A DNA stretch of 64,000 nt, from the NCBI GenBank assembly GCA_905233625.1, contig CAJOFJ010000004.1, positions 1 to 64,000 of the forward strand, read 5' to 3'. The stretch is from an uncultured Bacteroidales bacterium. GTDB lineage: Bacteria > Bacteroidota > Bacteroidia > Bacteroidales > WCHB1-69. The translations under genes were made by a program, and so were the position numbers. Below the pieces are notes generated by a model. That model did not search any database, had not been told where the DNA came from, and saw nothing but the letters and a program-made list of their open reading frames with translations. Below are positions 4,193 through 33,280 of the stretch, in pieces (the stretch's first letter is position 1; each line of letters begins with the position of its first letter).

Positions 4193-5461
4193 ATGAAAGA
4201 CCTGTTTATCGAAATATGGGAATCACTGAAACGCAACAAACTGCGGACAGCCCTCACCGGTTTCGCAGTGGCGTGGGGTATCTTCATGCTGATTGTACTT
4301 TTGGGTGCCGGCAACGGCCTGATGAACGCTTTCATGCACAACGGGCGCGATTTCGCCTCCAACACCATGATGATTTTTGGCGGCTATACCACCCAACCTT
4401 ACGATGGACTAGAACAAGGCCGGGATATCAGGTTGAACGACAAGGATATTCAGTTAACTGAAAGTCCGCTGTTTGCCAATCATATTGACGAAGTGACCGC
4501 CAATCTTATACAAGGGCCTTATCCACTGGTATGGAAAAATAAAAGTGTCTCCATCAGCCTCTCGGGCAGTTATCCCAAAATCGCCGAAATGGATAAAATC
4601 ACAATTCAAGAGGGCCGATTTATCAACGATATAGACATGCAGCTACGGAGAAAAACAGCGGTCATTGCCAGCACTCACGCCAAGCAACTGCTGAACGGCG
4701 GCACAGACTATGCTTATTTTATCGGCAAACAGCTGAAAATAGGAAACTCAATGTATCAGATTGTGGGCATCTACAAAGCGCAGGAAAACATGCGCAACAA
4801 CGATGTCTATGTTCCGTTCACCACCATGCAGATGCTCACCAACAACTACAATTACGAAGACCACATCGTCTTTACCTTCCATGGCTTGAATACCGAGCAG
4901 GAAAACGAGGAGTTTGAGCAGCAATACAGAGCGGTGCTCAACCAGTCGCACCGTGCCGCCCCTGACGACGACGGTGCAATATGGATATGGAACCGCTTCA
5001 CCCAGAACTTGCAAATGGACAAAGGCACGAGCATTCTGCGCAAAGCCCTATGGATTATCGGCATTTTAACACTATTAGGCGGTATTGTAGGGGTATCAAA
5101 TATCATGCTGATAACAGTGAAAGAAAGAACACACGAGTTCGGCATCCGCAAAGCCATTGGTGCTACACCGACATCTATCATGAAACTCATTGTAGCCGAA
5201 AGTGTTACCATCACAGCCTTGTTTGGTTACATTGGCATGATTCTCGGCTTGGTGGCCTGTGAAATCATGGACGTCACGGTAGGAAAATCCTCGTTAGAGA
5301 TGTTCGGAGAGAAAGTCAGCGTGTTTGTTGACCCGACGGTAGGCTTGGATGTGGCTTTCGGAGTAACACTTGTACTGATTATCGCCGGCACCATCGCCGG
5401 ACTCTCCCCCGCCATGAAAGCGGCTCGCATACGACCGATAGAAGCACTTAGAAATGAATGA
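4193..5461 (+). CDS. ABC transporter permease (MacB/FtsX-like)
   Basis: LKRNKLRTALTGFAVAWGIFMLIVLLGAGNGL ... GVSNIMLITVKERTHEFGIRKAIGATP. Confidence 0.9.
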   Translation: MKDLFIEIWESLKRNKLRTALTGFAVAWGIFMLIVLLGAGNGLMNAFMHNGRDFASNTMMIFGGYTTQPYDGLEQGRDIRLNDKDIQLTESPLFANHIDEVTANLIQGPYPLVWKNKSVSISLSGSYPKIAEMDKITIQEGRFINDIDMQLRRKTAVIASTHAKQLLNGGTDYAYFIGKQLKIGNSMYQIVGIYKAQENMRNNDVYVPFTTMQMLTNNYNYEDHIVFTFHGLNTEQENEEFEQQYRAVLNQSHRAAPDDDGAIWIWNRFTQNLQMDKGTSILRKALWIIGILTLLGGIVGVSNIMLITVKERTHEFGIRKAIGATPTSIMKLIVAESVTITALFGYIGMILGLVACEIMDVTVGKSSLEMFGEKVSVFVDPTVGLDVAFGVTLVLIIAGTIAGLSPAMKAARIRPIEALRNE

Positions 5462-5544
5462 GAAGCTGTGTGCGATGAGCGATGAGCTCACACCCCATAG
5501 CTCACAGCCCACAGCAAAATAAACAACTCAACAATTCAACAGTA

Positions 5545-6777
5545 ATGAAATTCGACTTGGACAGCTACAAAGAAATCTCTGACTCGCTGATGCGGAACAA
5601 ACGGCGGAGTTTCCTCACCGGCTTCGGCATTTTCTGGGGCTTGTTCATGCTGTTGTTCCTCATCGGAGGCGGAAACGGACTGAAGCAGTTGCTTTCCAAA
5701 AATTTCTCGGGCTTCGCCACCAACACCATCATTATGGGGGCGGGCCAGACAGGCAAGCCGTACAAGGGTTTTGAGGAAGGACGTTACTGGCAATTGGAGT
5801 TCAATGACGTAGAACGGTTGAAACATCTATTTCCCGAATTAGCCATCATCACCCCGCAACTGTCGCAATGGGGTGTGGTCGCTGTCAACGAAGGCTATAC
5901 GGTCAACAGCAACATGCTGGGAGCGGAGGCCGACTATCAGTATGTAGAAACCCCGATACTGAAATATGGACGTTACCTCAACAATGTGGATATACAACAG
6001 CACCGGAAGGTATGTGTCATCGGCAAACAGATTTACCAGTCGCTGTTTCCGGAAGGCGGTGACCCCTGCGGACAGTTCATCAGTGTGAACTCTGTTTATT
6101 ATCAAGTAATTGGAGTGAATTACAGCAGCTCCAACATCAACATCAATGGCCGAAGCGAAGAAAGTGTTACCGTGCCCATTACAGTTTTACGTGACATTCT
6201 TAACACGGGAGATGCGGTCGGAATGATTTGCATGGTGGGACGAGACGGTGTGAAGATGAGCGACATGGAACCCCGCATCCGCCAAGCTGTCTACCGCAAG
6301 CATACCATTGCACCTGACGATGACGAGGCGCTTTTTATGCTCAACATGGAACCAATTTTCAAGATAATTGATAACCTTTTCAAAGGAGTGAATTTCCTGA
6401 TTTGGTTAGTTGGTATCGGCACCTTGCTGGCCGGCGCCATTGGGGTGAGCAACATCATGATGGTGGTGGTGAAAGAGCGCACCATCGAAATCGGCATCCG
6501 CAGGGCCATTGGAGCCACACCTTTCGACATTCTGTTCCAGATTGTCATGGAAGGCATCGTACTCACTTTGATAGCGGGCCTGTCGGCCATCGTGTTCTCG
6601 GTATTCATGCTGAATGCGCTTGAAGTAATCGCTCACCATGAAACCGCCTTCCAGATTAATTTTGGCACGGCGATATCAGCCTTTTTCCTGCTTACCATAC
6701 TCGGCATATTAGCGGGCATTGCCCCGGCCTACCGAGCCATGCATATAAAACCTGTGGATGCGATGAGAGATGAATAG
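5545..6777 (+). CDS. ABC transporter permease (MacB/FtsX-like)
   Basis: MKFDLDSYKEISDSLMRNKRRSFLTGFGIFWGLFML...; GVSNIMMVVVKERTIEIGIRRAIGATP; start moved from 5482 to the ATG at 5545. Confidence 0.9.
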   Translation: MKFDLDSYKEISDSLMRNKRRSFLTGFGIFWGLFMLLFLIGGGNGLKQLLSKNFSGFATNTIIMGAGQTGKPYKGFEEGRYWQLEFNDVERLKHLFPELAIITPQLSQWGVVAVNEGYTVNSNMLGAEADYQYVETPILKYGRYLNNVDIQQHRKVCVIGKQIYQSLFPEGGDPCGQFISVNSVYYQVIGVNYSSSNININGRSEESVTVPITVLRDILNTGDAVGMICMVGRDGVKMSDMEPRIRQAVYRKHTIAPDDDEALFMLNMEPIFKIIDNLFKGVNFLIWLVGIGTLLAGAIGVSNIMMVVVKERTIEIGIRRAIGATPFDILFQIVMEGIVLTLIAGLSAIVFSVFMLNALEVIAHHETAFQINFGTAISAFFLLTILGILAGIAPAYRAMHIKPVDAMRDE

Positions 6778-24398: not shown

Positions 24399-24423
24399 CA
24401 AATGAATGTTTCAACATCTAGTT

Positions 24424-27414
24424 ATGGCGCTTGAAAAACAAATAGAAGACCAGTTTATCCGTTATTTAAGCGAGAATCTGAAATATGTCTATCGTGAGGA
24501 CATTCACGATAGGGACTCACTTGAGCGGAATTTTCGTGAGAAGTTCCAAGCCTTGAATCGTTGTCATTTGACCGATAACGAGTTCGCCCGTTTGTTGGAG
24601 GAAATCACGGATTCGGATGTGTTCAATGCTTCGAAGCGGCTGCGTGAGCGCAATACTTTCATGCGTGAGGATGGGACGCCGTTGCAATATATGCTAGTGA
24701 ACATCAAGGACTGGTGCAAGAATGATTATGAGGTGATTCATCAGTTGCGCATGAACACACGAAACAGTTTCCAACGCTATGATGTGATACTGCTTATCAA
24801 CGGTTTGCCTGTGGTGCAGATTGAATTGAAGACTTTGGATGTTAGTCCGCGCCGCGCCATGCAGCAAATTGTGGACTACAAAAACGATGTCGGCAATGGT
24901 TATACTAATTCGCTGCTATGCTTCATGCAGATGTTTATTGTCAGCAACCAGCACAACACATATTATTTCGCCAACAATAACAAGGAGCATTTCAACTTCA
25001 ATGCTGAGGAAAAATATCTGCCTGTATATCAATGGGCTGATGAGAAAAACCAAAAGATAACAGGTTTGGAGGCTTTTTCGGATGCTTTCTTGCAAAAGTG
25101 CCGTTTGGGTGAAATGATTAGCCGCTATATGGTTTTGGTGGCTTGTGAACGGAAGGTGCTGATGATGCGCCCCTATCAGATTTATGCGGTGAAGGCGATT
25201 GTCAGTTGCATCAACGAGAACCGAGGAAACGGCTACATTTGGCATACCACGGGTAGCGGTAAGACACTTACTTCATTCAAAGCTTCAACGTTATTGAAGG
25301 ACAATCCTGAAATTGAGAAATGCCTCTTTGTGGTGGACCGCAAAGACCTCGACAAGCAAACTCGCGAGGAATTCAACAAGTTCCAAGAGGGTTGTGTGGA
25401 GGAAAACACCAACACAGATGCGCTTGTTCGCCGTATGCTTTCTGAAGACTATGCCGACAAGATAATTGTGACCACCATTCAAAAATTGGGTATTGCCCTC
25501 GATCCGCAAAATCGCCGCAACTATCAGGAAAGGCTTATGCCGTTGAGAGACAAACGGGTGGTGTTTATCTTTGATGAGTGCCACCGTTCACAATTCGGCG
25601 ACAACCACAAAGTCATCAAGGAGTTTTTCCCGAAAGCGCAGTTGTTTGGTTTTACGGGAACACCCATCTTTGAGGCAAATGCCACCTATACCCAAATCAC
25701 AGGCGAGGAGGCCCAATACAAGACCACGAAAGATGTCTTCCAAAAGGAACTGCACGCCTACACCATTACCAATGCTATTGAGGACAGGAATGTGCTGCGT
25801 TTCCATGTGGATTACTTCAAACCTGAAAAGTCGGATATGGCGGGCGAGACAGTGAAGAAATCAGCTGTTGTGCGTACCATTTTGGGCAAGCATCGTGCAG
25901 CCACCGCCGACGGGCGTTTCAATGCCATCCTTGCTACGGGTTCCATCAATGAGGCTATCGAGTATTATCATCTGTTCAAGGAGATGCAAGCACAAAAGTT
26001 GGAAATGGATAATACATACGAGCCTTTGAACATTGCTTGCGTGTTTTCTCCGCCCGCTGAGGGTAATCGTGATATCCAGCAGATTCAAGAGGACTTGCCA
26101 CAGGAACAAAAAGACAACGAGCTGGAACCCGACAAGAAAAAGGCTGCATTGACGACCATCATTGACGATTACAACAAGCAGTTCGGCACCAACCATTCTG
26201 TGACAGAGTTTGATGCCTACTATCAGGATGTGCAGCAGCGCATCAAGAACCAGCAATACAGTAATAAGGACTATGCTCACAAGAACAAAATCGATATTAC
26301 GATTGTGGTGGATATGCTGCTGACGGGTTTCGATTCCAAGTATCTGAATACGCTGTATGTCGATAAAAACTTGAAATACCACGGTTTGGTGCAGGCCTTT
26401 TCGCGCACCAACCGTATCTTAAACGACAGCAAGCCTTACGGAAACATATTGGACTTTCGTGGTCAACAAGAGGCCGTGGATACCGCCATTGCCTTGTTCT
26501 CGGGCGAGAAGAAGGAAGAAGCTCGACAGATCTGGTTGGTGGAACCTGCTTCGGTTATCAGGAAGAAATACCTTGATGCGGTGAATGGTTTGCGCAATTT
26601 CATGGCACTTCATCATCTTGATTTTAAGGCGGAGGATGTGTTCAATCTGAAAGGTGACGATGCCAAGGCTGGTTTCATCGTTTGCTTCAAAGAAGTGCAG
26701 CGACTCAAGACACAACTCGACCAATATACTGACCTTGTGGAAGTTGAAGAGGAAAACGCTCCGAGTTTTGTGGCAGAGCCGCAAGCATCGTATGGTTTCA
26801 CTGATGATGACTTGCGGGCCTTCCGTGGAGCCTATCTCGACATTGCTCGTGAACTGAAAACCCGAAGGGAAAAGTCGGGAGCGGCTATTCCGAACGAAGT
26901 GGAGGAACTTGATTTTGAGTTTGTCCTGTTTGCCTCGGCCATGATTGACTACGACTATATCATGGAATTGATTTCCAAGTGCATGGGTCAGCCGGCCAAG
27001 TGGAAGATGACCAAAGAGGAATTGGTCAACCTGATTCGTTCAAGTGCCAACCTGCTTGATGATCGCGAGGACATTATTGCCTACATTGACAGCCTTGATG
27101 GCGTGAATGGTCGCACAGAACAGGAAATCAAGGAAAGTTATGAAGTTTTCAAGACGGAGAAATATGCCAAGGAACTGATGGTCATTGCCGAAAAACATGG
27201 TTTGAGTGTGGCCTCGTTGCAGGCTTTTGTGAACGACATTGTGGAACGCAAGATTTTCGACGGCGAGAAGTTGAACGGCTTACTTGAGCCCCTTGATTTG
27301 GGTTGGCGCGACCGTACCCGCAAGGAGACCGAATTGATGAACGACCTTGTGCCGTTGCTGAAACGTTTGGTGCCGGGACAGGAGATTTCGGGATTGAAGG
27401 CGTATGAGGAATAG
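24424..27414 (+). CDS. hsdR: Type I restriction endonuclease subunit R
   Basis: GLPVVQIELKTLD nuclease motif, IWHTTGSGKTLTSFK Walker A, FIFDECHRSQFG, FGFTGTPIF; alternative start at 24406. Confidence 0.93.
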   Translation: MALEKQIEDQFIRYLSENLKYVYREDIHDRDSLERNFREKFQALNRCHLTDNEFARLLEEITDSDVFNASKRLRERNTFMREDGTPLQYMLVNIKDWCKNDYEVIHQLRMNTRNSFQRYDVILLINGLPVVQIELKTLDVSPRRAMQQIVDYKNDVGNGYTNSLLCFMQMFIVSNQHNTYYFANNNKEHFNFNAEEKYLPVYQWADEKNQKITGLEAFSDAFLQKCRLGEMISRYMVLVACERKVLMMRPYQIYAVKAIVSCINENRGNGYIWHTTGSGKTLTSFKASTLLKDNPEIEKCLFVVDRKDLDKQTREEFNKFQEGCVEENTNTDALVRRMLSEDYADKIIVTTIQKLGIALDPQNRRNYQERLMPLRDKRVVFIFDECHRSQFGDNHKVIKEFFPKAQLFGFTGTPIFEANATYTQITGEEAQYKTTKDVFQKELHAYTITNAIEDRNVLRFHVDYFKPEKSDMAGETVKKSAVVRTILGKHRAATADGRFNAILATGSINEAIEYYHLFKEMQAQKLEMDNTYEPLNIACVFSPPAEGNRDIQQIQEDLPQEQKDNELEPDKKKAALTTIIDDYNKQFGTNHSVTEFDAYYQDVQQRIKNQQYSNKDYAHKNKIDITIVVDMLLTGFDSKYLNTLYVDKNLKYHGLVQAFSRTNRILNDSKPYGNILDFRGQQEAVDTAIALFSGEKKEEARQIWLVEPASVIRKKYLDAVNGLRNFMALHHLDFKAEDVFNLKGDDAKAGFIVCFKEVQRLKTQLDQYTDLVEVEEENAPSFVAEPQASYGFTDDDLRAFRGAYLDIARELKTRREKSGAAIPNEVEELDFEFVLFASAMIDYDYIMELISKCMGQPAKWKMTKEELVNLIRSSANLLDDREDIIAYIDSLDGVNGRTEQEIKESYEVFKTEKYAKELMVIAEKHGLSVASLQAFVNDIVERKIFDGEKLNGLLEPLDLGWRDRTRKETELMNDLVPLLKRLVPGQEISGLKAYEE

Positions 27415-27436: not shown

Positions 27437-29317
27437 ATGAGAGTAAACACAAAACAAGCGGTAAAATTGTTCTTCCAAAACCCTTCTTTAGAACAGGTGT
27501 TTAAGGAAGCCATTGCCAATTCTCTTGATGCAAATGCTACAGAGATTAAAGTCAATGTTTTCATTGATTCTTTTGAAAAACAAGAAACGTTGCAAATAGA
27601 GATTGTTGATAATGGAGAAGGTTTTACGGATGCGCGTTACGATAAGTTTTGTGAGTTGTTGAAAGTTGAAGAAGATACTCACAAAGGTGTTGGCCGATTG
27701 GTGTATCTAAGTTATTTCGACAAAATCGAAGTCTCGAGCTATTTTGGCGGGAAGCATCGTACTTTTACTTTTAACGATGAATTTGATAAGGAAAAAACTG
27801 ACATGAAGTTGTCAGTTGACGAGACGAGGAAACAAGAAACGACGCTGGCCTTTAAGAATTGTTCATTGCAAAGGTTAAGTAGTAATTCTGTCATAACCCC
27901 AGAGTATTTAAAACGGCAGATTCTGCTGGAGTTTTACCCTAGGTTGTATTTGCTGAAAAAAGCTGGAAAAGAAATCAAGATTACTTTCAAAATAGATATA
28001 CCTCATAAGAGCAAGAAACACTTTGTTGGTTCTTATGAGAAAGAGATTTCGAGCAATGATATTCCAGACATGCAAACAACACCTATTAATGCTGATGTTG
28101 TGAAAATGTATGAGAATACCCAATTGGATTATTCAGTAAAGAAATCGGATCCGTATTCGGAAACGTTTTTAATGACCGCACTGTGTGTTGATAACAGGAC
28201 TCAAGTGTTGGAGGACATTATAGCGCCTGAGAATTTGCCTAAGTTGGGATATTCGATAGTCTTTATTTTACGTTCGTCGTTTTTTGATGGCAAAGTTGAT
28301 GCGGCAAGACAAACGCTTACATTGAAAGAGGCGGATCTAAAGACAATTAAAGCTTTGTTTAGGGAAAAAGTTGCAGAGATTATTGAAAGGGAGATTCCTT
28401 CAATTAAAGAACAAAACCAGAAAACAAGAGAATCATTGAATAAGACTTATCCTCATCTTTTAGGCTATTTTAAGAAAGAAGAAGTGGGTATTATAGAACG
28501 TTCTCAATCTATTGAGGAAGCTCAGAAACGTTTTATGCGAGACCAAAAGGACATTTTGGAAGCACAATCATTAGAAGGTGATAGGTATGATAAAGCTCTG
28601 GATGTGTCTTCAAGAACTTTAGCCCAATACATTTTATATAGGGAAAAGATAATCCAAAAAGTTGAAGCTATAACAAAAGACAATCCTGAAGCAGACATCC
28701 ATAACATTATTCTTCCTCAAAAAAACGTGTTCAAAGAAGGTGATTTAGATTGTATTTATAACAATAATCTTTGGCTACTTGACAACAAGTATATGACATA
28801 CACAACGGCGATGTCAGATAAGACGATGAAGCAGGTGATTGAAGAAATAACACAAACGCCAGCGGAAACTGACAATGATCGCCCTGATATAGTCGTGATG
28901 TTTTCAAATGATCCTCAGAACTCTCAAGACAAGTCTGTTGATGTCGTTGTTATTGAACTCAAGAAAAGAGGGATTAAACTTGCAAAAACAGAAGAAGCCA
29001 TCAGCCAACTGAAGCAACGTGCTATTAAGTTGTTGAAATACTATCCAAATAAGATCCAACGGATGTGGTTTTATGCCATCGTTGAATTCAATGATGAGTT
29101 CAAGTTGTCGCTAATCAATGATGAATACACGCCTTTGTTTTCCAAAGACAGTTTGTATTATAAAGAGAATAAGCTACAACTATCACTTGATGACCCGACC
29201 AAATATCCAATCGGTACGTATGTGCTTTCCATCGATGCATTTATTAAGGACGCAAAAGCAAACAATGAGGTGTTTTTGAATATACTTAAAGATGGCTTTA
29301 AGCAAAAACAACAGTGA
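27437..29317 (+). CDS. GHKL (Hsp90/MutL-type) ATPase with putative C-terminal PD-(D/E)XK nuclease domain
   Basis: FKEAIANSLDANAT, EIVDNGEGF, HKGVGRLVY (GHKL boxes); C-terminal RPDIVVMF...VDVVVIELKKRG. Confidence 0.75.
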   Translation: MRVNTKQAVKLFFQNPSLEQVFKEAIANSLDANATEIKVNVFIDSFEKQETLQIEIVDNGEGFTDARYDKFCELLKVEEDTHKGVGRLVYLSYFDKIEVSSYFGGKHRTFTFNDEFDKEKTDMKLSVDETRKQETTLAFKNCSLQRLSSNSVITPEYLKRQILLEFYPRLYLLKKAGKEIKITFKIDIPHKSKKHFVGSYEKEISSNDIPDMQTTPINADVVKMYENTQLDYSVKKSDPYSETFLMTALCVDNRTQVLEDIIAPENLPKLGYSIVFILRSSFFDGKVDAARQTLTLKEADLKTIKALFREKVAEIIEREIPSIKEQNQKTRESLNKTYPHLLGYFKKEEVGIIERSQSIEEAQKRFMRDQKDILEAQSLEGDRYDKALDVSSRTLAQYILYREKIIQKVEAITKDNPEADIHNIILPQKNVFKEGDLDCIYNNNLWLLDNKYMTYTTAMSDKTMKQVIEEITQTPAETDNDRPDIVVMFSNDPQNSQDKSVDVVVIELKKRGIKLAKTEEAISQLKQRAIKLLKYYPNKIQRMWFYAIVEFNDEFKLSLINDEYTPLFSKDSLYYKENKLQLSLDDPTKYPIGTYVLSIDAFIKDAKANNEVFLNILKDGFKQKQQ

Positions 29318-29318
29318 T

Positions 29319-30492
29319 ATGGAAACTGGAGAAAAGAAAAACATACCTATCCTCCGCTTCCCCGATTTTGTAAATGATGGGGAATGGGAAGAAGCAAAAG
29401 TTGGTGATGTTATCAATACACTAACACCACCAAAGAAATTAACTTCAAGTGAATATGAAAAAACAGGGAAATATCCAATAATAGACCAATCACAAAATTT
29501 CATTTGTGGTTATTCAGATGACGAGGATGCTTTGATGAATCATAATAATGAAGATTTGATTGTTTTTGGGGATCACACCTGTGTTTTGAAATTTGTTAGT
29601 TTCCCGTTTATTCAGGGTGCGGATGGAATAAAGATTATCAAGTCTAAAGATTCGAATAAACTTGTTGAGTCTTTCCTTTTTCAGTCTTTACTAAATAATC
29701 CTGTAGTTTCGAGGGAATATAAAAGACATTTTTCTGAATTAAAAGAAAAGGAGCTCTGTTTTTCGCATAATATTGCTGAACAACAAAAAATTTCATCATG
29801 TCTTTTTTCGATGGATGCATATATTTCAGCAACAAAGGAAAAACTAGAACTTTTGAAAACATACAAGAAAGGCCTGATGCAGAATCTTTTCCCCGCCAAA
29901 GGCAAAAAACTACCTGAACTACGCTTCAAGGAATTTGAGAAGGAAGGGCAATGGGTAGAAAAAAGATTGGGAGAGGTTACAAAAGATGTAAATCGTAGAA
30001 ACAAAAGCAATCGGAACCTTCCCATTTATTCAATTAGCAATAAAGACGGTATTATTCTTCAATCCGAGCAGTTTGATGGTCTTGACAGTATTAGCAGAGG
30101 ATACGATACTTCGTTATACAAAATAGTTACAAGCAATACTTTTGCATATAATCCAGCCAGAATAAATGTAGGTTCTATAGGATATAGTGTCATTGTATGT
30201 GTGCTTTAAAACAACTGAAGATGTTGATGATTCGTTTTTAATGTATTTCTTCGACACTTCATCTTTTAACCAAAGTGTGGAAAACAATGTGGAAGGAGGA
30301 ATTAGGAGTTATTTGTTTTATGAGAATTTCTCGAAAATTAAAATATTGTTTCCGTCTATTTCGGAGCAAAAGAGAATAGTATCTTTCTTGAAAGCTATAG
30401 ATGAAATAATCGATGCGCTTTCCAATAAGATTTCTGAATTGGAAAGATACAAAATAGGAATGATGCAAAAAATGTTTCCAATAATTAAATGA
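29319..30492 (+). pseudogene. hsdS: Type I restriction specificity subunit S, split by frameshift at about 30180
   Basis: Frame 3 ORF to 30209 (TRD1, central LKTYKKGLMQNLFPAKGKKLPELRF, part of TRD2) continues in frame 1 (30187-30492: YVCFKTTEDVDDSF...LERYKIGMMQKMFP). Confidence 0.85.
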
Positions 30493-31694
30493 CAAACAAA
30501 ATGAAAAACAAACCAAAGATATACGAGTATAAAACTTTGAATAATGTTGTAACAAGATTACGCGATGATTTGTCCAAAGAGTCAGGATCAAAAGTCGTGT
30601 TGTTGTATGCATTCAACAGGACAGGAAAAACACGTTTGTCGATGGCTTTTAAAGACAAAGGGAAGAAAAAGAATAAAGGCAAAGCGGATACATTGTATTA
30701 TAATGCTTTCACAGAAGACCTGTTTGTATGGAACAATGATTTGGAACACGATCAAATCAGATATTTGAAAATCAATGAGCAGTCTAACTTTTTCAGTGGT
30801 TTTAAAGGTTTGGCTTTGGAAGAAAGAATACACGGTCATCTTGAAAGATTTGCTGAGTTTAATTTTAAGATAGATTATGATGCTTGGAAAGTGTCTTTTA
30901 GTCGAGAGATTCCCAATCCCAAATACAATCCGCATAATGATGAACCTGAAAGAATAATTCAAGAAAATATTAAAATATCGAGAGGAGAAGAGAATATTTT
31001 TGTCTTTTCTGTTTTCATGTCAATATGCGATTTAGTCATTGAAGGTAAAGAGGAATATAGTTGGGTGAAATACATTTACATTGACGACCCTATTTCATCA
31101 TTGGACGAAAACAATGCTATCACACTGGCATCCGACTTGTCAAATATGATTAAAGATGATTTCGAGAAGCACAATGATACTGGAGGTCACAGGAAATACG
31201 TGATTTCTTCTCATCATTCTCTGTTTTTCAACATTGTCTATAACGAGTTGAAAAAATCATCGTCCAACTCATATTTCCTGTATAAGACCAAGAAAGAAAC
31301 ATACAAGTTGCAATCGACAGACGATTCGCCTTTCTTTCATCATATTGAGCAGCTTTGTGAATTGAACCAAGTTGTCAAACAATACGAAGAGATTGAGAAA
31401 GGGGATTCAAAATTGGAACAATCATCCATTCTTAAGACATATCATTTCAATATGCTTCGTGCCATTTTCGAAAAAACATCTATCTTCTTCGGGCATGAGG
31501 ATTTTTCATATTGTTTAAAAGATTTCCCAGACAAAGAATTGTTTGTACGTGCTGTACAAATAATGAGTCATGGGAAATACTCGATATTTGCCCCCAAAGG
31601 AATGTTAAAAGAAAATGCGGATTTGTTCGTTCGTATTTTTAAGACATTTGTCGAACAATATAAATTTGAATTACCGGAAATTTTTTTTGAATAA
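30489..31694 (+). CDS. PrrC-like anticodon nuclease (ABC-type ATPase + ACNase domain)
   Basis: LLYAFNRTGKTRLS (P-loop), TLYYNAFTEDLFVWNNDL (PrrC-box-like), KISRGEENIFVFSVF signature, YIDDPISSLD, R324xxxE328...H361 matching the PrrC R/E/H triad spacing. Confidence 0.8.
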   Translation: MTNKMKNKPKIYEYKTLNNVVTRLRDDLSKESGSKVVLLYAFNRTGKTRLSMAFKDKGKKKNKGKADTLYYNAFTEDLFVWNNDLEHDQIRYLKINEQSNFFSGFKGLALEERIHGHLERFAEFNFKIDYDAWKVSFSREIPNPKYNPHNDEPERIIQENIKISRGEENIFVFSVFMSICDLVIEGKEEYSWVKYIYIDDPISSLDENNAITLASDLSNMIKDDFEKHNDTGGHRKYVISSHHSLFFNIVYNELKKSSSNSYFLYKTKKETYKLQSTDDSPFFHHIEQLCELNQVVKQYEEIEKGDSKLEQSSILKTYHFNMLRAIFEKTSIFFGHEDFSYCLKDFPDKELFVRAVQIMSHGKYSIFAPKGMLKENADLFVRIFKTFVEQYKFELPEIFFE

Positions 31695-31696
31695 AT

Positions 31697-33280
31697 ATGA
31701 CACAAAACATACAACAAGAACTCGGCAAGACCCTTTGGGGTATAGCGAACAACCTGCGCGGTGCAATGATGGCGGATGATTTTCGCGATTATATGCTGTC
31801 GTTCCTTTTTTGGAAGTACCTATCAGACAACTATATAACATCAGCACAAAAAGAATTGGGCTCGGATTATACAGCCTTGCAAGTATGGTATAAAGGACAT
31901 CCCAACGATACGCTGTTGTTTGAGCGACAAATGCGGCGCAAAATCCATTATGTAATAGAGCCTCAATATCTTTGGGACAACATTGTGGAACTTGCCCGCA
32001 CGCAAAGCGATGATTTGCTTACCACTTTGCAAGAAGGCTTTAAATACATTGAAAACGAGTCGTTTGAAAGTTCGTTTAAGGGTTTGTTCTCCGAAATCAA
32101 CCTGAATTCGGAGAAATTGGGTAAGAACTATACCGAACGCAACGCACTTTTGTGCAAGGTCATCAAGACCATCGCCGACGGCCTTGCTGAAATTCCTTCG
32201 GATTCTGATGCCTTGGGCGATGCCTACGAGTACTTGATAGGTCAGTTTGCGGCAGGTTCGGGGCAAAAAGCAGGTGAGTTCTACACACCGCAAATGATTT
32301 CAACTATCCTTTCTCGTATCGTCACCCTCGACTGTCAAGACCCCACAACGGGCAAAAAGAAACGCATTGATAAAGTGCTCGACTTTGCTTGCGGTTCGGG
32401 CTCGTTGCTGCTGAATGTGCGCCGAGAAATGAAAGACCATGCTATCGGCAAGATTTACGGTCAAGAGAAAAACATCACTACCTACAACCTTGCCCGAATG
32501 AACATGCTGCTGCATGGTGTGAAGGACACAGAATTTGAAATCCACCACGGTGATTCGCTTGCCAATGATTGGGACATTCTCAACGAGCAGAATCCCGCCA
32601 AGAAGATGCAGTTTGACGCAGTGGTTGCCAATCCGCCTTTCAGTCTGCGCTGGGATCCGACGGAAGAAACCGCCAAAGATTTCCGTTTCAATCGCTATGG
32701 TGTGGCACCCAAGTCCGCCGCCGATTTTGCTTTCTTGTTGCATGGTTTCCACTTCTTGAGCGACAACGGCACGATGGCCATCATTTTGCCTCACGGCGTG
32801 TTGTTCCGTGGCGGCAAGGAAGAAGTCATCCGCAAGAAACTGCTTGAAGACGACAACATTGACGCTGTCATCGGTCTGCCCGCCAACTTGTTCTATTCCA
32901 CCGGCATTCCGGTATGCATCCTTGTGCTGAAGAAGTGTCGCAAGAACGACAAGATTCTGTTCATCAATGCTAGCGGAGAGGAGCATTACGAGAAAGGCAA
33001 ACGCCAGAACTACCTTCGAGTCAAGAATGTGGATAAGATTGTGGAAACTTATCAATTCCGCAAAGAGGAACCGCGTTTCTCTCGCTTGGTTTCATTGGCG
33101 GAAATCAAGGAAAACGACTACAACCTCAATATCACACGCTATGTCAACCTGTCGAAGGAAGAAGAACAGATTGACCTTGAAGTCGTTACCAAGCAACTGC
33201 ATGAAACGGATGCAAAAATTGAGGAGTCACGCGGTAAGCTCAATCTATTTTTGAAAGAGTTGGGTTTGAAGGAAATATAA
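31697..33280 (+). CDS. hsdM: Type I restriction-modification DNA methyltransferase subunit M
   Basis: GEFYTPQMISTIL, VLDFACGSGSLLLNV, FDAVVANPPFSLRW. Confidence 0.94.
   Translation: MTQNIQQELGKTLWGIANNLRGAMMADDFRDYMLSFLFWKYLSDNYITSAQKELGSDYTALQVWYKGHPNDTLLFERQMRRKIHYVIEPQYLWDNIVELARTQSDDLLTTLQEGFKYIENESFESSFKGLFSEINLNSEKLGKNYTERNALLCKVIKTIADGLAEIPSDSDALGDAYEYLIGQFAAGSGQKAGEFYTPQMISTILSRIVTLDCQDPTTGKKKRIDKVLDFACGSGSLLLNVRREMKDHAIGKIYGQEKNITTYNLARMNMLLHGVKDTEFEIHHGDSLANDWDILNEQNPAKKMQFDAVVANPPFSLRWDPTEETAKDFRFNRYGVAPKSAADFAFLLHGFHFLSDNGTMAIILPHGVLFRGGKEEVIRKKLLEDDNIDAVIGLPANLFYSTGIPVCILVLKKCRKNDKILFINASGEEHYEKGKRQNYLRVKNVDKIVETYQFRKEEPRFSRLVSLAEIKENDYNLNITRYVNLSKEEEQIDLEVVTKQLHETDAKIEESRGKLNLFLKELGLKEI

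Follow-up and report, generated by a model that had tools for sequence, protein, structure and literature searches.

The window, a 64,000-nucleotide stretch of DNA from an uncultured Bacteroidales bacterium, carries a restriction operon in which prrC is flanked by hsdS and hsdM; hsdR and a gene for a GHKL-type ATPase lie upstream (Table 1). The initial annotation had described prrC as an open reading frame of 401 residues, and we recovered this frame with all the motifs quoted for it. HsdR has an EcoR124_C domain, and we therefore regard the restriction system as type IC-like. PrrC has been reported to be invariably linked to type IC restriction-modification (PMC2610378); the window gene has this linkage, with hsdS and hsdM as its neighbors and EcoR124_C in HsdR. 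The end of hsdS and the start of prrC overlap by 4 nt. The same overlap is present in annotated members of the window gene's clade, on plasmids and in E. coli, which suggests translational coupling. The hsdS-prrC-hsdM block recurs in Bacteroidota, Pseudomonadota, Chlorobiota and Cyanobacteriota. Within the GHKL-type ATPase, residues near 'VDVVVIELKKRG' resemble a PD-(D/E)xK motif, as judged by eye only.

Table 1. Genes of the restriction operon around prrC, with the evidence for each assignment
Feature	Position	Strand	Evidence
hsdR, type IC-like restriction subunit, 1002 aa	24406..27414	+	EcoR124_C E=8e-57, HSDR_N E=3.2e-33, SWI2/SNF2; PADLOC REase_I
Accessory gene between hsdR and hsdS for a GHKL-type ATPase, 626 aa	27437..29317	+	Pfam HATPase_c_3 E=2.5e-9
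hsdS, 5' part, with the first target-recognition domain, the central conserved region and some of the second domain	29292..30209	+	Methylase_S
hsdS, 3' remainder in another frame	30187..30492	+	Methylase_S E=3.2e-9; sequence and DNA alignment
prrC, predicted ABC-type ATPase with C-terminal anticodon-nuclease domain	30489..31694	+	PADLOC PrrC, alignment to EcoPrrC-type L040, predicted structure
hsdM, modification subunit, 527 aa	31697..33280	+	N6_Mtase E=1.5e-106, HsdM_N E=1.2e-22, TIGR00497 above cut-off

In a profile search, residues 4-394 of the prrC product matched PADLOC PrrC (PDLC02360, E=1.9e-116), and the Pfam match was AAA_13, just above the cut-off (E=1.6e-9). We built a maximum-likelihood tree from 36 PrrC proteins and obtained one clade of EcoPrrC-type proteins (100/100), a second whose members in this sample all come from genomes of the window's class (100/100), and a third that includes the window protein (97/99); because branches are long, the relations between the three are uncertain. 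Window PrrC groups with the protein of G003, a genome of the same genus (72% identity), and with L010, from a Bacteroidaceae genome. Profile, tree and operon context place the protein inside PrrC and so bear out the earlier reading of a PrrC-like anticodon nuclease; judged by its sequence, it is a genuine and ordinary member of the family. Compared with the sister-species gene, prrC has a dN of 0.18 and saturated synonymous sites, so that a dN/dS ratio is not computable; the combination of low dN with saturated synonymous sites points to purifying selection. No relatives were found in phage records and viral contigs, the viral scan using exact short patterns that reach close relatives only.

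As a reference for EcoPrrC-type proteins we used L040, an E. coli plasmid protein of 396 residues annotated 'anticodon nuclease', which carries K46, D222, D287, R320, E324 and H356. Residues K47, D206, D279, R324, E328 and H361 of window PrrC align with these six and are identical at every position. The published catalytic triad of EcoPrrC is R320, E324 and H356 (PMC2610378), and its counterparts in the window protein, R324-x3-E328 and H361, lie where the initial annotation had put them. All three are invariant in 44 of 44 aligned homologs, close and distant, from several phyla. The ABC-ATPase residues K47, S164 of the signature, D199, D200 and D206 are likewise invariant in the 44. The distance from glutamate to histidine does differ by one, as had been claimed, being 33 in window PrrC and 32 in L040; across the aligned homologs it ranges from 32 to 37, except in one outlying group with 55. 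This group (L034 8542-9714, L035 4373-5545 and L089 7621-8895) has an intact triad and a histidine at the column of D287, and its genes are not directly upstream of hsdM.

Two further features singled out at first sight look less distinctive across the family. The P-loop does read AFNRTGKT, with R44 instead of the usual glycine, yet this is no oddity of the window protein: arginine occupies the position in 6 of the 44 homologs and alanine or serine in 7 more. The five other carriers are L010, L032, L099, L101 and L102, and three of the six are plasmid proteins of Pseudomonas, Tistrella and Sediminicoccus; alanine or serine occurs in most members of another clade. We therefore treat the arginine as natural variation and reject it as an inactivating mutation. 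The proposed fit of R354-x6-H361 to a HEPN pattern was weakened by the alignment, in which H361 is invariant but R354 is present in only 32 of 44 homologs and lost from one whole clade; since R354 is not conserved family-wide, we do not accept this as a defining HEPN motif.

An AlphaFold2 model built with seven sequences (pLDDT 80, pTM 0.77) consists of a P-loop ATPase part, predicted to form a Rad50/SMC-type head, followed by a helical C-terminal domain. In the model, helix 318-333 bears R324 and E328, and H361 ends helix 349-361. The best solved matches found by Foldseek, which had low TM-scores, were SMC/Rad50 heads and retron I-A complexes, and sequence searches of solved structures with either the single protein or a profile gave no relevant match.

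In a guarded system of the EcoprrI/PrrC type, intact hsdR, hsdM and hsdS can silence PrrC; the window operon has intact hsdR and hsdM genes and a frameshifted hsdS. DNA alignment with the intact hsdS of the sister species G003 (L032 9941-11185) revealed a 26-bp deletion in the second recognition domain of the window gene (29292-30492), together with the frameshift; the first part ends at 30209, about 280 nt ahead of the prrC start. One copy of this sequence was found in the genome, and no second copy that might serve as a phase-variation partner. The deletion could have lowered PrrC output through lost coupling, could have removed a silencing partner, or could be a strain-level or assembly artifact. 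Because hsdS is frameshifted in this genome, both silencing and translational coupling of PrrC may be impaired, and this copy of prrC may be without its guard, of which HsdS is presumed to be part, or poorly expressed. The defect matters for how PrrC is regulated in this strain; it does not affect the membership of the protein in PrrC.

The strongest competing explanation, which we consider unlikely but a serious contender, is that a true prrC by descent has fallen silent here because the frameshift in hsdS broke coupling and possibly complex assembly, with little PrrC being made from a decaying locus. The deletion with its early stop ahead of prrC, and the coupling suggested by the overlap in relatives, are what such silence would predict. 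Against it, the reading frames of prrC and hsdM are fully open and under constraint, hsdR is intact, and the hsdS deletion itself might be confined to the strain, reversible or due to faulty assembly.

D287 of EcoPrrC, which we take to be the tRNA-recognition aspartate, is kept in window PrrC as D279. Its column varies across the family. In PrrC-like proteins of the second clade (L036 8238-9356; L026-L031, L037 and L092), asparagine or lysine replaces the aspartate, and the tRNA target of these proteins may differ. That window PrrC is a family nuclease cleaving a tRNA other than tRNA-Lys seems to us improbable: its identity to the EcoPrrC-type protein is only about 32% and the column is variable, but the window protein retains the aspartate, and PrrC170 of Klebsiella quasipneumoniae, whose operon has the same order, acts on tRNA-Lys (PMC11555353). 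Assignment to RloC, or to another ABC-ATPase defense protein, is very improbable and we reject it on size and architecture: RloC shares the ABC motifs and the R-x3-E...H nuclease site (PMC2610378) and the generic Pfam match is AAA_13, but 401 residues fall within the PrrC range of 341-416 and far below the 658-897 of RloC, which is about twice as long, has a zinc-hook coiled coil and is rarely linked to restriction-modification (PMC2610378), whereas the window protein is too short for such an insert, has none in sequence or model, is named PrrC by PADLOC and is linked to a restriction-modification operon.

Of the characterized systems, PrrC170 has been shown to halt growth, to target tRNA-Lys and to block T1 and T7 (PMC11555353). 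Its operon, hsdR-hsdS-prrC-hsdM, matches the window's order of hsdR-(x)-hsdS-prrC-hsdM, both proteins have an ABC-ATPase domain (PMC11555353), and the two lie at a similar distance from EcoPrrC (35% reported for PrrC170, 31.7% between window PrrC and L040). The order hsdR-hsdS-prrC-hsdM characterizes the clade of window PrrC, and from gene order and reported identity PrrC170 probably belongs to this clade; a K. quasipneumoniae plasmid homolog, L097, which is not necessarily PrrC170, is 43% identical to the window protein. The window locus differs in the GHKL gene between hsdR and hsdS, the frameshifted hsdS and the P-loop arginine. With E. coli PrrC and its type IC system EcoprrI it shares protein size, ABC motifs, catalytic triad, the D287 equivalent, a prrC directly after hsdS and a type IC HsdR; in contrast, the EcoPrrC-type order is hsdM-hsdS-prrC-hsdR (L040) and its proteins form a separate, fully supported clade.

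By analogy with EcoPrrI/PrrC and PrrC170, window PrrC is most likely an anticodon nuclease for tRNA-Lys that the restriction complex keeps latent. PrrC would be made alongside HsdS and HsdM and kept inactive by the restriction-modification complex, and inhibition of that complex by a phage would release it. The ABC-type ATPase domain would power activation, and the R324/E328/H361 site would cut tRNA-Lys in the anticodon loop, upon which translation would stop and the infection would be aborted. Family, clade, operon and the intact catalytic and tRNA-recognition residues are evident from the sequence; silencing, trigger, substrate and cleavage we infer from EcoPrrC and PrrC170. The window gene very probably encodes a PrrC-family anticodon nuclease that acts as suicide back-up of its type I restriction operon.

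Comparison with related loci revealed that PrrC varies independently of the genes around it. In the sister species G003, the neighboring genes match the window's on both sides, and HsdR and HsdM are 95% and 94% identical to the window's, but PrrC is only 70-72% identical. At the DNA level, identity is 96% in the second HsdS recognition domain, about 67-74% in prrC and 83-97% in hsdM; the first HsdS recognition domain differs, and an Abi_2 gene takes the place of the GHKL gene. By the same method, dS against the sister gene is about 0.46 for hsdM and about 0.89 for hsdR and is saturated for prrC, so replacement of prrC fits better than fast protein evolution. In G033, a genome of another genus in the same family, PrrC belongs to a different clade, although HsdR matches that of the window at 97.0% identity and HsdM at 97.5%. 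DNA similarity to G033 covers 24423-27412 (hsdR, 91%) and 31693-33279 (hsdM, 95%), and between the two genes is confined to 136 bp of central hsdS. Because the end of hsdR and the prrC stop codon mark the limits of the similarity, PrrC behaves as exchangeable cargo. G063, from another genus, has the GHKL gene in the same slot as the window (85-98%, with the C-terminal half 98% identical), but its PrrC is only 39-46% identical. PrrC was not detected in L087, L088, L090 and L091, loci of the same HsdM subfamily.

Other accessory genes were seen in and around the hsdR-hsdS slot, varying by locus: Abi_2 in L032 (8745-9698), DUF6978 with DUF1828/1829 in L036 (5515-6833), a TrlF-type ATPase with an RNA-binding protein in L019 and L097, KilA-N in L037, a PDDEXK nuclease in L018, L091 (YhcG type) and L104, and an AAA_14/DUF4143 ATPase in L034, L089 and L090. 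In L090, a DUF4062/HATPase_c_4 gene (4551-6215) fills the hsdS-hsdM slot, the place of prrC in the window.

The principle of such cargo slots is already known, having been described for C. jejuni hsd loci, with rlo between hsdR and hsdS and mlo between hsdS and hsdM (PMC5183652), and for V. cholerae, with embedded defense genes (PMC11411939). The GHKL gene and prrC of the window, in a different host, fill the same two slots as rlo and mlo, a likeness of slot positions alone (PMC5183652). We found no published account of swapping between PrrC clades in the literature searched. Our tentative reading, quite possible but short of probable, is that PrrC is a plug-in effector of a widespread hsdR/hsdM chassis, with non-orthologous clades, which differ in the residue at the tRNA-recognition position, swapped in and out. 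Because the swaps would occur between near-identical hsdR/hsdM pairs, the silencing contacts would have to be on HsdS or on a surface shared by all the clades, and the target may shift with each swap.

The locus adds to the family a Bacteroidales PrrC with the full set of catalytic and substrate-recognition residues. Beyond the initial annotation, it brings to light a type I operon, a broken hsdS, a recurrent P-loop arginine and exchange of PrrC between relatives. The frameshifted hsdS prompts a separate question, namely how a cell tolerates a nuclease gene that is apparently intact when the guard for it is damaged. The comparison with G033 and G003, in which near-identical HsdR and HsdM accompany PrrC proteins of different clades, is a natural experiment, and makes it possible to test directly which of the restriction subunits is responsible for silencing PrrC and whether exchange alters target specificity.
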